Shown in pieces: positions 2,099 through 8,931 of a DNA stretch of 32,062 nucleotides; position 1 is the stretch's first letter, and every line of letters starts with the position of its first letter. Both the position numbers and the translations under genes were made by a program. Location of the stretch: the NCBI GenBank assembly GCA_022511505.1, contig JAFLTK010000345.1:1-32062 (forward strand). Direction: 5' to 3'. This DNA is from Muribaculaceae bacterium. Its GTDB lineage: Bacteria > Bacteroidota > Bacteroidia > Bacteroidales > Muribaculaceae. Under the pieces are notes generated by a model. That model was not told where the DNA came from and did no database searches. It worked only from the letters and a program-made list of their open reading frames with translations.

Positions 2099-3163
2099 AT
2101 GAAACGAGTTGTCGTTTTTGGTGCTACCGGCAATCTTGGTGCCTATATTGCAATGCATCTCAAGAATGAGGGTTATGATGTCATCGCTGTTGGAGGACGC
2201 AAGGATGACAAGGGCTTCTTTGCCGATCATGGCATGCAATATTTCTCGGTAGACATCCGTCGTCCCGATGCTTTTGACGTTTTACCCGCTGAAGGAATTG
2301 ATGCGGTGTGTCATTTTGCCGGGGCTCTTCCAAGCCGATATGAATTTGATCCCGTTGACCTTATTGAGTCCATCACTATTGGCACTCTCAATGTGTTGAA
2401 TTGGATGAGAAAGGTCGGTTGCAAGAAGATTGTCTTCCCTCAGACACCGAGCGATATGGCCAAATATCACAACAATGGTTCAGTCATCCCCGATGATGCT
2501 CCGCGCCATTTCCCTTTGACAGGCGATCATGCAATCTACACTATCGCTAAAAATGCCGCAGTCGACCTAATGGAACATTATCAGGCTGAATATGGAATCG
2601 CGTTTTTTGCGCTGAGATTTTTCACAATCTATCAATATCATCCCAATGCGTGGCATTATTGTAACTTCAAGCGTCGCATGATGCCATTCCGCATGTTGAT
2701 GGACCGCGCTTCAAAGTCGCTGCCCATTGAGATCTGGGGCGATTGCAAGAAGGCCAAAGAGATGGTCTATATTAAAGACTTTGTCAGATTGGTTCGCAAT
2801 TGTGTTGATTCAGACCTTCCCGGTGGATGCTACAATGTGGGAAATGGATGGCAAGTATCCCTTGAGGATCAAATAAAAGGTATTGTTGAAGTATTCTCGC
2901 CCAAAGAGAATCCCTCGCCGATAATCTATTGTCCTGAAAAGCCCGACCCTCTTGAGAACGCTTTCAGCATGGAAAAAACATTCCGCGATCTCAAGTGGAG
3001 GCCCAAGTATTCCTACCTTGACCAACTCCGAGATTTCAAACACGAAATGGAGACCGAGCCCATGGCCGGCCTTTGGGGTGTTATGAAAGATTATGAGCCA
3101 AAGGATGATGATGACGTCAACAATGAAGACTATGCCCCGGCTCGCGGTCGTATTGATAAATAA
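2099..3163 (+). CDS. NAD-dependent epimerase/dehydratase (extended SDR)
   Basis: N-terminal GATGNLG Rossmann motif, YTIAK (YxxxK) catalytic motif, sugar-nucleotide epimerase-like C-terminus. Confidence 0.87.
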   Translation: MKRVVVFGATGNLGAYIAMHLKNEGYDVIAVGGRKDDKGFFADHGMQYFSVDIRRPDAFDVLPAEGIDAVCHFAGALPSRYEFDPVDLIESITIGTLNVLNWMRKVGCKKIVFPQTPSDMAKYHNNGSVIPDDAPRHFPLTGDHAIYTIAKNAAVDLMEHYQAEYGIAFFALRFFTIYQYHPNAWHYCNFKRRMMPFRMLMDRASKSLPIEIWGDCKKAKEMVYIKDFVRLVRNCVDSDLPGGCYNVGNGWQVSLEDQIKGIVEVFSPKENPSPIIYCPEKPDPLENAFSMEKTFRDLKWRPKYSYLDQLRDFKHEMETEPMAGLWGVMKDYEPKDDDDVNNEDYAPARGRIDK

Positions 3164-3222
3164 TAATCAAATAAAATAGCAATCATCTGAATGAAAAATA
3201 TTGTAAATCAATTGGTTAGTGT

Positions 3223-4152
3223 ATGGGGGGGGTAAAAGCCCTTTCAATGAAATCTAATAGATCGGCAATAAGTCTTTACATAGAGTTTTTCTGGTGTTTT
3301 CTGCGCTATGGATGCCTTCCACGACAATATTTCAACGGACAGTTCTGGAACAAGACAACTAACGATCGAAAAGACATTCTGACTTACAGAAAGTTTGTCA
3401 ATGTAATGAATTCGTTAAATAAGGATGAGGAGATACATATATTAGCCGATAAATCACATTTTAACAAATATTTTGATGATTATATTCACAGAGAATGGCT
3501 GTTGTCCTCTGAATCATCACCAAAACAAATTGCTGAATTTATCCTTCGTCATGGAAACGTAATTATTAAACCGTTTGACGCAATGGAGGGTCATGGCATT
3601 TATAAGATTTCAGCATCTGATATTGATGACATTGATGAAACTAGTCAGAAGTTAGCCAACCAACAATTGATGATTGAGGAAATTCTTAAACAGCACCCTG
3701 ACATGATTTTTGGGAACACTTCGGTCAACACAATTAGAGTGCACACTATTCTCGACCACAACGGCAAAGGGCACGTGATTAGTTGTGTTCTAAGAGCCGG
3801 TGTTGGTGATACTGTTGTTGATAATTATTGTTCGGGTGGCGCAATTTACCCCGTCGATGTTGAAAGTGGAATAGTCACCGGTAAAGGCAAATCTCATGAT
3901 GGCGGATGCCACATTGTTCACCCATTCACTGACATTGTTATGCTCGGTTATAAAATACCTAATTGGAATATTCTATTAAACGAGATAATAAAAGCAGCAG
4001 AAAGACTGCCGGGTCTCCGTCTCATTGGATGGGATGTTGCCATCACAAATGATGGAATCGCTTTAATTGAGGGAAACCATAACCCTGACTATGAATTATA
4101 TGAATTTATTGGAGATGGAAAATCCTATCCTACTATAAAAAAGTTCATTTAG
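3223..4152 (+). CDS. Sugar-transfer associated ATP-grasp protein (ATPgrasp_ST-like); start uncertain (3191 across the G tract, 3223 or 3247)
   Basis: FGNTSVNTIRVHT, IIKPFDAMEGHGIY and RLIGWDVAITNDGIALIEGNHNPDYELYE resemble the ATPgrasp_ST family; it lies directly upstream of a sugar transferase. Confidence 0.75.
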   Translation: MGGVKALSMKSNRSAISLYIEFFWCFLRYGCLPRQYFNGQFWNKTTNDRKDILTYRKFVNVMNSLNKDEEIHILADKSHFNKYFDDYIHREWLLSSESSPKQIAEFILRHGNVIIKPFDAMEGHGIYKISASDIDDIDETSQKLANQQLMIEEILKQHPDMIFGNTSVNTIRVHTILDHNGKGHVISCVLRAGVGDTVVDNYCSGGAIYPVDVESGIVTGKGKSHDGGCHIVHPFTDIVMLGYKIPNWNILLNEIIKAAERLPGLRLIGWDVAITNDGIALIEGNHNPDYELYEFIGDGKSYPTIKKFI

Positions 4153-4168
4153 AGATATTCATCTTTCT

Positions 4169-4783
4169 ATGTACCAACGATTCTTTAAACGCACAATTGA
4201 TATCTCTGCAAGTCTTGGAGTTTTGATTATATTCAGTCCTATACTTGTGACAGTAGCCATTTTGCTTCATTTTTTCAACGAAGGGGCAGGCGTTTTTTTT
4301 CTGCAGGAACGTCCAGGATATAAAGGCAAGCCTTTTAAGATTGTTAAATTTAAAACAATGAACGAACGTAAGGGTCCCGATGGTAAATTGTTACCTGATA
4401 AACAACGCATAACTCCGTTTGGTGCATTTGTGCGCAACTCATCACTTGATGAACTTCCGCAATTGTGGAATGTATTGAAAGGAGATATGTCATTAATCGG
4501 GCCGCGGCCTTTATTAATGCAATACCTCCCTCTCTATAGTGCAGAACAAATGAGACGGCATGACGTACGTCCCGGCATATCGGGCTGGGCTCAATGCCAC
4601 GGACGCAATAATCTGTCGTGGACCGAGAAATTTAAACTTGACGTTTGGTATGTTGATAATATTTCTTTTAAGACAGATTGTGAAGTTGTATTAACGACTT
4701 TAAAAAATGTCATTCGACATAAAGATATCGACAATTCCAACTCATCAAAATTCACTACTGAACCTTTCAATGGGCAAAACTAA
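4169..4783 (+). CDS. pglC: Initiating sugar transferase, PglC-like monotopic phosphoglycosyl transferase
   Basis: FFLQERPGYKGKPFKIVKFKTMNERKGPDGKLLPD, SSLDELPQLWNVLKGDMSLIGPRPLL, RPGISGWAQCHGRN, and a PglC-like tail (TTEPFNGQN). Confidence 0.85.
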   Translation: MYQRFFKRTIDISASLGVLIIFSPILVTVAILLHFFNEGAGVFFLQERPGYKGKPFKIVKFKTMNERKGPDGKLLPDKQRITPFGAFVRNSSLDELPQLWNVLKGDMSLIGPRPLLMQYLPLYSAEQMRRHDVRPGISGWAQCHGRNNLSWTEKFKLDVWYVDNISFKTDCEVVLTTLKNVIRHKDIDNSNSSKFTTEPFNGQN

Positions 4784-5972
4784 AATATCTGATTATAGCG
4801 ATTTGAAAACGCCATGTTTTCTGTTTGACGAAACAGAATTTCAACGAGGTATCAGAGAGTTTCAAGCCGCTCTGAAATCAAGATCGTTTGATTATATAAT
4901 AGGTTATTCTGTAAAGACCTGCTCACTGCCCTATGCTTTGCGCAAGGCGCGTGATTTTGGATGTATGGCAGAGGTTGTGAGTCGCGATGAATATCAACTC
5001 GCTACTCTTTGTGGTTTTAATCCACAAAAAATTATTTATAACGGCCCCATGAAATCCTATGAAACTTTTATCGAGGCTGTTTCTCAAGGGGCTATTGTAA
5101 ACATTGAAACTAAACGCGAATTAAAATGGTTGGATGAACTACCCGATGGTCAGGTCTATAAAATTGGACTTCGGCTTAATATCAACATATCTCATGTGTC
5201 ACCGGAAGATGCTGATGGAGATGATGATAATAGTCGATTTGGGTTCTCTGATGAAACAGATGAATTTTGCGATGCAGTAAAGTTGATATCATCAAATCCT
5301 AAAGTACATCTAGCCGGCCTGCATATCCATAGGACCACTCATTCTCGTTCACCTCGTTTTTATGAGCGATCTATAGAGTATGCGGCTCAGGTCATAAAAA
5401 AATATGATTTAAAACTCGACTATCTCGATGTAGGTGGAGGATATTTCGGCATATTTCACAACAAACCAACATTCAGAGACTATGCCGAGGCATTCAATCA
5501 GGCACTTCATCGGAATGGACTTGATCAATTGCAAATTATCATTGAGCCAGGTAACGCACTTACTGCCAGCTCGTTTAAATTTCTTTCGGAGGTAATTGAC
5601 GTCAAGCGTGTTGATTCTAAAACTCGATTTGTGACAACCGATGGTTCACGAAATGACATTGATCCTTTTTTTCGCAAAACCAATTATCTGAAAGAAATTC
5701 TTTATAAGGAAGGGAATCGTCCTATTGAACCTTTTCAAGTCATAGGTGGATGCTCATGCCTCGAATATGACCGATTATTTACGCTCGTTGATAGCCCGCT
5801 AATCAATATAGGAGACCGTATTCTCTACAATAATGTAGGCGCCTATACACTAACATTATCACCCCTATTTATCCGTTTATGGCCGCGAGTATATTCTATT
5901 TCGCGTGAAAGAGATAAAAAAGTGGTACGACGAGAACTAAATGCTTCAGATATAATTAATTTTGATAGCTAA
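4770..5972 (+). CDS. PLP-dependent fold-type III decarboxylase (diaminopimelate/ornithine decarboxylase-like)
   Basis: IGYSVKTCSLPYALRKARDFGCMAEVVSRDEY (PLP lysine motif), LDYLDVGGGYFG, IIEPGNALTASS, NNVGAYTLTLSP. Start taken at ATG 4770, overlapping pglC by 14 nt, rather than the ORF-track start at 4707. Confidence 0.82.
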   Translation: MGKTKISDYSDLKTPCFLFDETEFQRGIREFQAALKSRSFDYIIGYSVKTCSLPYALRKARDFGCMAEVVSRDEYQLATLCGFNPQKIIYNGPMKSYETFIEAVSQGAIVNIETKRELKWLDELPDGQVYKIGLRLNINISHVSPEDADGDDDNSRFGFSDETDEFCDAVKLISSNPKVHLAGLHIHRTTHSRSPRFYERSIEYAAQVIKKYDLKLDYLDVGGGYFGIFHNKPTFRDYAEAFNQALHRNGLDQLQIIIEPGNALTASSFKFLSEVIDVKRVDSKTRFVTTDGSRNDIDPFFRKTNYLKEILYKEGNRPIEPFQVIGGCSCLEYDRLFTLVDSPLINIGDRILYNNVGAYTLTLSPLFIRLWPRVYSISRERDKKVVRRELNASDIINFDS

Positions 5973-6004: not shown

Positions 6005-7006
6005 ATGAACAATCTGTTATTCTGTAGTGTAGGACGTCGAGGGCGTCTACTACAAAATGCTAAGGAAACGATTGGTAAAACAGGATTGATTGTCGGCACT
6101 GATAATCAATCTACGGCGCCTGCGCTTCAATTTTGCGACCGGCAGCATGTGGTTCCTCGCATTACCGATCCCAAATACTTCGATATTATCCTTAATATAT
6201 GCAAGGAGAATGACATTAAAGCTATTACTACACTTATAGATCCTGAAATCGAACTTCTTGCAAAAAACTCAGACCGATTCAAGGAACTCGGTGTTATACC
6301 TTTATGTCCCGCTCCCAAAAGCGCAATCTATTGCTTCAACAAATTTGAACTTTACAAATATCTTACCGAGAAAGGTATCAGAACCCCTCTAACTTTTCAC
6401 GATTGGGACGAGTTCATAGAAGCACTTGAAGAAAGAAGAATTTCGTTCCCCATTTTCATGAAACCCATCTGTGGAAGTGCCAGCATTGGTGCACATAAAG
6501 TTCACACTCTCGAACAAGCAACGATAGATTGGAATTCTGGAGAACACGATTATATCATTCAGGAGCTAATGACAGGAGGTGATTGTGATGCAGATGTTTA
6601 TGTTGATACAATCTCTCATAAAGCTGTAGCTGCATTCTCTAAACGTAAGATTGAAACTCGCATTGGTGGAGCCAGTAAAACGATCTCGTTTAAAGACCCG
6701 AAGTTGTTTAAATTTATAGAGGAAATATGCTCAGTTTTTGAGTTTAACGGTCCTCTTGATATGGATTTCTTCATTAAGGATGGAGAATATTATCTTTCTG
6801 AGATTAATCCTCGATTTGGGGGTGCCTATCTCCATGCCTATGGCGCAGGAGTGGATTTTTTCCAACTAATTGTCAATAATATTAATGGCATTGTTAATGA
6901 GGTTAATCTCGGCAATTATGATGATGACGTGCTGATGTTAATGTATGACGACGTTGTCATTGTCCCCAAAGATAAACTTGTAAATGATAAATTCTCGCTT
7001 CTCTGA
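6005..7006 (+). CDS. ATP-grasp domain protein (CarB/PylC-like carboxylate-amine ligase)
   Basis: FPIFMKPICGSASIGAHKVHT, YIIQELMTGGDCDADVYVD and GPLDMDFFIKDGEYYLSEINPRFGGAYLHAY are ATP-grasp signatures. Confidence 0.85.
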   Translation: MNNLLFCSVGRRGRLLQNAKETIGKTGLIVGTDNQSTAPALQFCDRQHVVPRITDPKYFDIILNICKENDIKAITTLIDPEIELLAKNSDRFKELGVIPLCPAPKSAIYCFNKFELYKYLTEKGIRTPLTFHDWDEFIEALEERRISFPIFMKPICGSASIGAHKVHTLEQATIDWNSGEHDYIIQELMTGGDCDADVYVDTISHKAVAAFSKRKIETRIGGASKTISFKDPKLFKFIEEICSVFEFNGPLDMDFFIKDGEYYLSEINPRFGGAYLHAYGAGVDFFQLIVNNINGIVNEVNLGNYDDDVLMLMYDDVVIVPKDKLVNDKFSLL

Positions 7007-7012
7007 AATATA

Positions 7013-7606
7013 ATGGCAAAGGTGAATGTTTTTGGAGCGGGAGGGCATGCTCGTGTAGTTGCCGATATTGTGGAGGCAACGGGTCGCGAAGTCGGGTGCT
7101 TTTATGACGACGCCCCCCGCGTCGAGACGCTCAAAGGGCACCCGGTTGTCAGGCCGACGGCCTGTGTCGACCACACTGAGCATACGGCTGTCGAATCGTC
7201 ATGCGCAAGTGTCACCGGGCCGCTTGTGGTAGCGATTGGCGCTAACAAAGTGCGCAAGGAGGTCGCTGAGCGGTATTGTGTTGAATATCAGGCGATTGTT
7301 GCACCGGGGGCCATTGTTGCACCTTCGGCCAAGATGGGCGAAGGTAGTGTGGTTCTGCAAGGTGCTGTTATCCAGACTGATGCGACTGTTGGGTGTCATT
7401 GTATCGTCAACATTGGTGCTATGATTGACCATGATTGTGAGATTGGCGATTTTGTCCATGTTGCCCAAGGTGTCGCCTTGGGTGGAGGTGTCAAGATTGG
7501 CGAAGGAACGTGGATTGGTGCCGGCTCAGTTGTAACCTCAGGTGTAAAGATTGGTTGCTGGCGGGTCATTCCACCCGGGTCAGTCATTACCGAAGACTTT
7601 GAGTAG
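7013..7606 (+). CDS. pglD: PglD-like sugar N-acetyltransferase (PglD_N plus hexapeptide repeats)
   Basis: MAKVNVFGAGGHARVVADIVEATGREVGCFYDD, MIDHDCEIGDFVHVAQGVALGGGVKIGEGTWIGAGSVV. Confidence 0.83.
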   Translation: MAKVNVFGAGGHARVVADIVEATGREVGCFYDDAPRVETLKGHPVVRPTACVDHTEHTAVESSCASVTGPLVVAIGANKVRKEVAERYCVEYQAIVAPGAIVAPSAKMGEGSVVLQGAVIQTDATVGCHCIVNIGAMIDHDCEIGDFVHVAQGVALGGGVKIGEGTWIGAGSVVTSGVKIGCWRVIPPGSVITEDFE

Positions 7607-7662: not shown

Positions 7663-8931
7663 ATGAAACAAGAGAGAATTTTGCTCTGTCTCGCCCACAT
7701 GAGCGGGCGAGAAATGGCGTTTATCGAGCAAGCATTCCGCGATAACTGGGTCGTGCCTTTGGGACCCAACGTTAATGGTTTTGAGGCTGACCTTGAGGCA
7801 TTTGTCAACCGTCGCGACGCCGCCGAGCCGCTCCACAAGCGCGTAGTGGCGCTCAGCGCGGGAACGGCGGCGGTGCATTTGGGGTTGATTGCGGCCGGGG
7901 TGAAGGCGGGCGACGAGGTGATTGTGCAGTCGTTCACGTTTTGCGCGTCGTCCCACCCGGTGACCTACCTCGGCGCGACGCCGGTGTTTGTCGACTCTGA
8001 GCCGCGGTCGTGGAACATGGACCCGGCGCTGCTCGAGGAGGCTATCCGCGACCGTGAGGCGAAGACGGGACGCCGCCCGGCGGCAATTATCCCGGTGGCG
8101 TTGTATGGCATGCCATACGACGCGACGGCCATCATGGAGGTTGCCGACCGCTATGGCATCCCGGTCATCGAGGATGCCGCCGAGGGCTTTGGCTCGCGCT
8201 TCAAGGGGCAGGTGCTGGGTACGTTTGGCCGCTATGGCGTGCTGTCGTTCAACGGCAACAAGATGATAACGACCTCGGGCGGCGGCGCTTTGATTTGCCC
8301 CGACGAGAAGGAGGCGCGCCGCGTGCTGTGGTATGCCACTCAGGCGCGCGAGAGTTACCCCTACTATCAGCATGAGGAGATTGGCTACAACTACCGCATG
8401 AGCAACATCTGTGCCGGCATAGGCCGCGGCCAGATGACAATCGTCGACGAGCACATCGCCCACCATCGCCACGTCCAGGAACTCTACTGCCGCCTGCTGG
8501 CCGATGTCGAGGGTATCACGATGCACGTCAACCCCGGGCCTGACTATGACTCTAACTACTGGCTCTGTACGGCCACGCTCGACCCGGCGCTGCGCATCAA
8601 GGGCCAGGAGCGCGCCTATAAGCAGGTAATCACCGGCGCAGTTGGCGGCGCCGCCGGCGTCACCCATCAGGTTGCAACGGCTACGACCGACTGCCAGCCC
8701 AACGATAACGTCGAGGCCCTTCGCATGGCGCTCGACGCTGCCGGCATCGAGTCGCGCCCCCTTTGGAAACCGATGCACCGCCAGCCGGTCTATGCCTCCA
8801 ACCCGGCATATATCAACGGCGTCAGCGACCTCCTTTTCAAGACCGGCATCTGCCTCCCCGCCGGACCTTACGTCACCGACGAGCACGTTGCCCACATCGT
8901 CCGCTCAATCAAGGACGCCATCGAGCGCTGA
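7663..8931 (+). CDS. pglE: DegT/DnrJ/EryC1 family aminotransferase (PglE-like)
   Basis: ALSAGTAAVHLGLIAAGVKAGDEVIVQSFTFCAS, VIEDAAEGFGSRFKGQVLGTFGRYGVLSFNGNKMITTSGGG, IGYNYRMSNICAGIGRGQM. Confidence 0.87.
   Translation: MKQERILLCLAHMSGREMAFIEQAFRDNWVVPLGPNVNGFEADLEAFVNRRDAAEPLHKRVVALSAGTAAVHLGLIAAGVKAGDEVIVQSFTFCASSHPVTYLGATPVFVDSEPRSWNMDPALLEEAIRDREAKTGRRPAAIIPVALYGMPYDATAIMEVADRYGIPVIEDAAEGFGSRFKGQVLGTFGRYGVLSFNGNKMITTSGGGALICPDEKEARRVLWYATQARESYPYYQHEEIGYNYRMSNICAGIGRGQMTIVDEHIAHHRHVQELYCRLLADVEGITMHVNPGPDYDSNYWLCTATLDPALRIKGQERAYKQVITGAVGGAAGVTHQVATATTDCQPNDNVEALRMALDAAGIESRPLWKPMHRQPVYASNPAYINGVSDLLFKTGICLPAGPYVTDEHVAHIVRSIKDAIER

Follow-up and report, generated by a model that had tools for sequence, protein, structure and literature searches.

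An ATPgrasp_ST gene in the window, which is the whole stretch of 32,062 nucleotides analysed here, carried a run of eight G bases (G8) in its 5′ coding region. Judged from its sequence features and those of homologous genes, this tract is probably a contingency (phase-variation) repeat of a glycan-modification gene, with a rough probability of 0.75. In the proposed mechanism, replication slippage, presumed to occur in vivo, would alter the tract length by one base. A G9 (or G6) tract would give the full-length ligase, whereas G8 would give a 14-residue stub from ATG 3191. Since slippage would switch a glycan-decorating ligase, the glycan decoration would differ from cell to cell, and the selective reason is presumably phages or immunity. 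The features of the locus were as follows.

2099–3163, + strand: NAD-dependent sugar epimerase (PF01370), immediately upstream of the ATPgrasp_ST gene
3191–3235, + strand: native 5′ end of the ATPgrasp_ST gene, MKNIVNQLVSVWGG followed by a stop in the G8 phase
3225–3232, + strand: G8 tract, at which slippage is proposed to act; in frame again as G9 or G6
3223–4152, + strand: body of the ATPgrasp_ST (PF14397) gene; in the G8 phase open only from ATG 3223 or ATG 3247
4169–4783, + strand: initiating sugar-phosphate transferase (PF02397)
4707–5972, + strand: PLP-dependent amino-acid decarboxylase (PF02784), whose true start may be further in
6005–7006, + strand: PylC-like second ATP-grasp ligase (PF21360, PF02655)
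7013–7606, + strand: PglD-like sugar acetyltransferase (PF17836)
7663–8931, + strand: DegT/DnrJ/EryC1 sugar aminotransferase (PF01041)

The window gene was a clear member of the ATPgrasp_ST family (sugar-transfer associated ATP-grasp) by sequence and was located among sugar-transfer genes. The match to PF14397 scored 136.2 bits against a cut-off of 31.4 (E-value of 1.6e-39) and covered protein residues 60–294. The protein read in the G9 frame kept every invariant column of the family alignment A1, and the gene showed no further lesion apart from G8. The model of a homologue from a Phocaeicola faecalis isolate (L039), with a pLDDT of 93, resembled ATP-grasp ligases, RimK and PsnB among them, and the nearest solved folds (RimK, PsnB, and other ATP-grasp ligases) were just 10–17% identical. 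The same epimerase gene was also found near the ATP-grasp gene in L039, L047, and L189. The most likely role of the ligase is to add an amino-acid or amine substituent to the surface glycan that the neighbouring enzymes make, and the glycan genes around the ligase gene suggest that a surface phenotype would depend on the phase. At 1968–2063 of the window (+ strand), a short fragment, MYRRFFKRAIDIVASGCALVVLAVPLAD, followed by a stop, looked by eye like the beginning of the sugar-phosphate transferase gene at 4169; it was probably left behind when genes of the cluster were shuffled.

Reading frames and the native start

The first-pass annotation had described a reading frame from ATG 3191 (MKNIVNQLVSVWGG) that runs through G8 at 3225–3232 into TAA at 3233, with ATG 3223 and ATG 3247 as the starts available in the G8 phase, and it had proposed that adding one G or removing two would fuse this frame to the downstream gene. 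All of these elements were present in the sequence: the downstream frame was open from either G8-phase start to 4152, and in silico tracts of G9 and G6 joined both frames while G8 did not. Among the in silico lengths, G7 and G10 closed both upstream starts (ATG 3191 and ATG 3223), and ATG 3223 was in frame at G5, G8, and G11 only. The homopolymer was located inside the native 5′ coding region, and a change of one base switched the frame of an otherwise intact gene, which was closed at G8 and open from ATG 3191 at G9.

In all 24 of the closest homologues (at least 35% identity), an ATG was located 38–44 residues, mostly 40–43, ahead of a conserved R-[HY]-G motif. The corresponding distance in the window was 40 residues for ATG 3191 via G9, 29 for ATG 3223, and 21 for ATG 3247. 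The N-termini were colinear across the tract, with IWGEVSKLS of L019 aligned to VWGGVKALS of the window, and the segment before the tract matched the N-terminal helix of close homologues. The 12 residues before the tract beat 99.6% of the ATG-started peptides of the window on the family N-terminal profile (p = 0.004). The upstream start context of ATG 3191 was the best of the three ATGs. These four lines of evidence, namely start position, colinear alignment, profile fit, and start context, indicate that the segment before the tract is the native N-terminus. With the native start at ATG 3191 in the G9 frame, the assembled G8 sequence would represent the OFF or N-truncated phase. The earlier concern that homologues might begin at the 3247 methionine, with an unconserved upstream segment, was not borne out, as the aligned N-termini started at the equivalent of ATG 3191 (G9). 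The idea that the tract toggles the full-length form gained support from the sequence comparison with one correction: the tract would decide not on an optional extension but on the normal full-length protein of the family.

An alternative start was the most probable of the other explanations, in particular for the window gene, and it was considered unlikely. According to this explanation, the G8-phase ATG 3223 (or ATG 3247) yields a working ligase that is shorter by 11 (or 19) residues, and the tract trims the N-terminus or is approximately neutral. ATG 3223 is in the G8 frame and retains the conserved first-helix leucine, its context score was inside the lower range of true starts, and the Pfam domain begins well downstream of it. 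However, no close homologue began so late, and the first helix, confidently modelled with 22 residues, would be cut by the G8-phase truncation. The context of ATG 3247 was poor, and most tracts of the homologues were located in the middle of the gene, beyond rescue by any start. ATG 3223 is a possible fallback, 11 residues shorter, in the G8 phase only. The nearly full-length product that it could yield counts against the contingency reading.

Poly-G tracts in homologous genes

Apart from the G8 tract, no run of G or C in the window reached 7 bases, and a dinucleotide model gave 0.48 expected runs of at least 8 in 32 kb. A single G8 in this window, taken alone, is within chance expectation, and rarity in the window was dropped as an argument. 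Therefore, the statistical case must rest on the homologues. The draft genome of the organism (90% complete) contained 9 tracts of at least 8 G in 2.55 Mb, and none of the other 8 interrupted a recognisable gene on the sense strand. This scarcity of long G-tracts in its own genome counts against the contingency reading. The gene was present in one copy in this assembly, and no second copy with a different tract length was found there.

The ATPgrasp_ST loci were gathered by protein similarity from approximately 1,770 genome searches, in which some genomes were repeated, and one contig scan. Tracts of G8–G10 were present in 9 of 145 ATPgrasp_ST gene regions (119 distinct loci), all on the sense strand. 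The nine tracts occupied about eight different positions, given below as the approximate codon on the L039 scale, and four were in frame and five out of frame.

Window: G8 near codon 13, out of frame
L039 (commensal isolate FXJYN30E22 of Phocaeicola faecalis): G8 near codon 25, in frame
L217: G9 near codon 58, in frame
L153 (distant member): G8 near codon 100, out of frame
L047: G9 near codon 122, out of frame
L044 (Prevotella RUG136): G9 near codon 137, out of frame
L222: G10 near codon 155, in frame
L046: G10 near codon 158, out of frame
L158: G9 near codon 236, in frame

A single ancestral site may underlie the tracts of L222 and L046. The in-frame and out-of-frame states were seen across homologues of different species, with one genome per species.

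With 4.4 tracts per Mb genome-wide, as pooled from five genomes, 0.62 tracts were expected in these gene regions, compared with the 9 observed. The excess over the genome-wide rate gave P values of 3e-7 without the window and 4e-6 when L222 and L046 were counted once. Four of the five genomes used for the rate carry a tract-bearing ATPgrasp_ST gene, and the rate is therefore not biased low. In a comparison within loci, the ATPgrasp_ST genes had 9 tracts in 141 kb and the genes flanking them 7 in 312 kb (p = 0.03 by Fisher's test, or 0.06 with the window left out). The flanks were themselves enriched, with 7 tracts observed and 1.4 expected (P = 6e-4), and the excess over them was modest because the glycan loci are tract-rich as a whole.

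The majority of ATPgrasp_ST genes had no tract, and the order-wide search returned mostly distant members, which were tract-free. No other homologue was found in the genus of the window organism among 3 genomes, and the single good orthologue in the genus of genome G256 was tract-free. The P. faecalis G8 site reads AGGGAGGGA in L150 and in the closest Phocaeicola relative (G803), a hint that such sites can gain or lose a tract. The G803 gene has a frameshift elsewhere, unrelated to the tract site. The split homologues L150 and L160/L045 were considered as further cases and rejected, as they carried no G-tract. Separately, a second P. faecalis ATPgrasp_ST gene (L039:3897–5022) was split at a G6 run.

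The L047 gene was disrupted by its G9 tract alone, and its orthologue L189 (70% DNA identity) was intact and tract-free. When L047 was compared with L189, both halves of the gene showed a nonsynonymous difference of 0.15–0.20 against a near-saturated synonymous difference of 0.80–0.94. By this sequence comparison, both halves of L047 are under purifying selection and not in decay.

The L047/L189 pair bears on a second explanation, in which an error of sequencing or assembly hides a gene that is always G9, or the gene is dead through ordinary pseudogene decay. The window belongs to a draft metagenome-type assembly, in which homopolymers are error-prone, and the two rejected homologue groups (L150 and L160/L045) show that ordinary frameshifts without a G-tract occur in the family. 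However, the window gene was otherwise undamaged and retained the invariant columns, purifying selection acted across both halves in the L047/L189 pair, and a one-base miscall would leave the tract long and mutable anyway. The first-pass annotation had allowed that the tract might be a sequencing error; this is unlikely as a general explanation because tracts recur in the same family in eight other genomes, including an isolate, and four of those tracts are in frame. Overall, error or decay was considered improbable.

Recoding, in which slippage of RNA polymerase or the ribosome gives a fixed full-length fraction from G8 without a change of DNA, is very improbable: homopolymers of at least 8 bases are known transcription slippage sites (PMC3711429), but programmed slippage normally conserves its site, whereas the positions and phases of the homologue tracts differ with no conserved slippery site and phase among them, four tracts are plainly in frame, most homologues are tract-free, and no special RNA structure was found around the window tract (z = −0.8). 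All three explanations were weakened by the many tract positions and the in-frame homologues.

As far as the compared sequences reveal, ATPgrasp_ST seems to recur as a poly-G contingency gene in Bacteroidales, and the window gene is likely a new instance of slipped-strand phase variation by its sequence features. A broader reading is favoured only a little above even odds. In this reading, the ATPgrasp_ST ligases would form a recurrent and independently evolved poly-G contingency class in gut Bacteroidales (Muribaculaceae, Prevotella, and Phocaeicola), as part of a slippage-based phasome beside the invertible promoters. With the same slight preference, the phasome would also include acyltransferases, TonB receptors, and promoter spacers, and would tune single glycan decorations and not whole capsules.

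Relation to known phase-variable systems

Translational phase variation of surface-glycan genes through poly-G or poly-C tracts is known from Neisseria, Campylobacter, and Helicobacter. The present case shares with them a homopolymeric G-tract in a coding sequence, a glycan-modifying gene, and a surface-glycan cluster, and both phases may occur in nature here too, in that homologues of different species had in-frame and out-of-frame tracts. It differs in the bacterial order, Bacteroidales, in the ATPgrasp_ST family, and in that the switching is proposed from sequence comparison. Phase variation of gut Bacteroidales has been described mostly as DNA inversion. The invertible promoters of Bacteroides belong to the same order and act on the same kind of target (surface polysaccharides and TonB receptors), but site-specific inversion switches whole loci, whereas slippage would switch the frame of one enzyme.

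A 2025 review mentioned Bacteroides in connection with inversion (PMC11868660). Slippage was speculated at a C4/C5 run in a polysaccharide acetyltransferase of B. fragilis (PMC3090145). That gene likewise modifies a polysaccharide, belongs to a Bacteroidales species, and has its frameshift at a homopolymer, there a short run of C; that case involves C4/C5 and speculation, whereas here G8–G10 tracts recur in one family across genomes. In B. intestinalis, one of the proteins reported to change with phage was an ATP-grasp protein of a phase-variable capsule operon, and slippage was not reported (PMC12118408). In a literature consisting mostly of non-subscription papers, no report was found of poly-G phase variation of ATPgrasp_ST genes or in Muribaculaceae or Prevotella, of poly-G phasomes in Bacteroidales, or of ATP-grasp phase variation. 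Because few subscription journals were covered, this absence argues only weakly for novelty. The mechanism belongs to a known kind, of which this gene family and this lineage seem to be new examples.

Homopolymer frameshifts in draft genomes are easily discarded as noise. Should these tracts prove to switch, many of the surface genes that look ‘broken’ in assemblies of Bacteroidales would be live switches, and variation of single glycan decorations would be a cheap route of escape from phages and immunity. Such variation would then be directly countable from existing metagenomic reads.

Further tracts in the compared genomes

Additional tracts were seen in other surface genes. Five TonB-dependent receptors (Plug and CarbopepD_reg_2) of Prevotella RUG136 (G398; L132, L133, L137, L139, and L148) had a G8 or G9 tract within or close to the region of the signal peptide. 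Some of these tracts were in frame, and L133 and L148 need one G fewer; the five receptors are candidates for slippage control. Acyltransferase genes and a glycosyltransferase-like gene (L208, L209, and L210 of G208, and L225:2579) carried G8–G10 tracts in both phases, and these tracts are candidates for further glycan-modification switches. The acyltransferase assignment was based on PF01757 in three of them and on the look of the sequence in L225. A PGA_cap capsule gene just 3′ of the G256 ATP-grasp gene (L047:2400–3500) had an in-frame G8 near its start. The sibling glycan genes with tracts (the acyltransferases and the one PGA_cap gene) were counted in favour of the contingency reading.

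In L048 and L050 of the window organism's own genome and in L197, L198, L204, and L212 of G208, intergenic G8–G11 tracts preceded a Bacteroidales −7 box (TAnnTTTG) by 15–21 bases and often followed TTAAC. This spacing to the −7 box was found in 5 of 45 tracts of at least 9, compared with a background of 3% (p = 0.01), and these intergenic tracts are possible transcriptional slippage switches. The dinucleotide TA directly followed 36 of 79 tracts of at least 8 G, including the window tract, and 8 of 71 runs of 6–7 (p = 5e-6), in loci that were partly chosen for their tracts.
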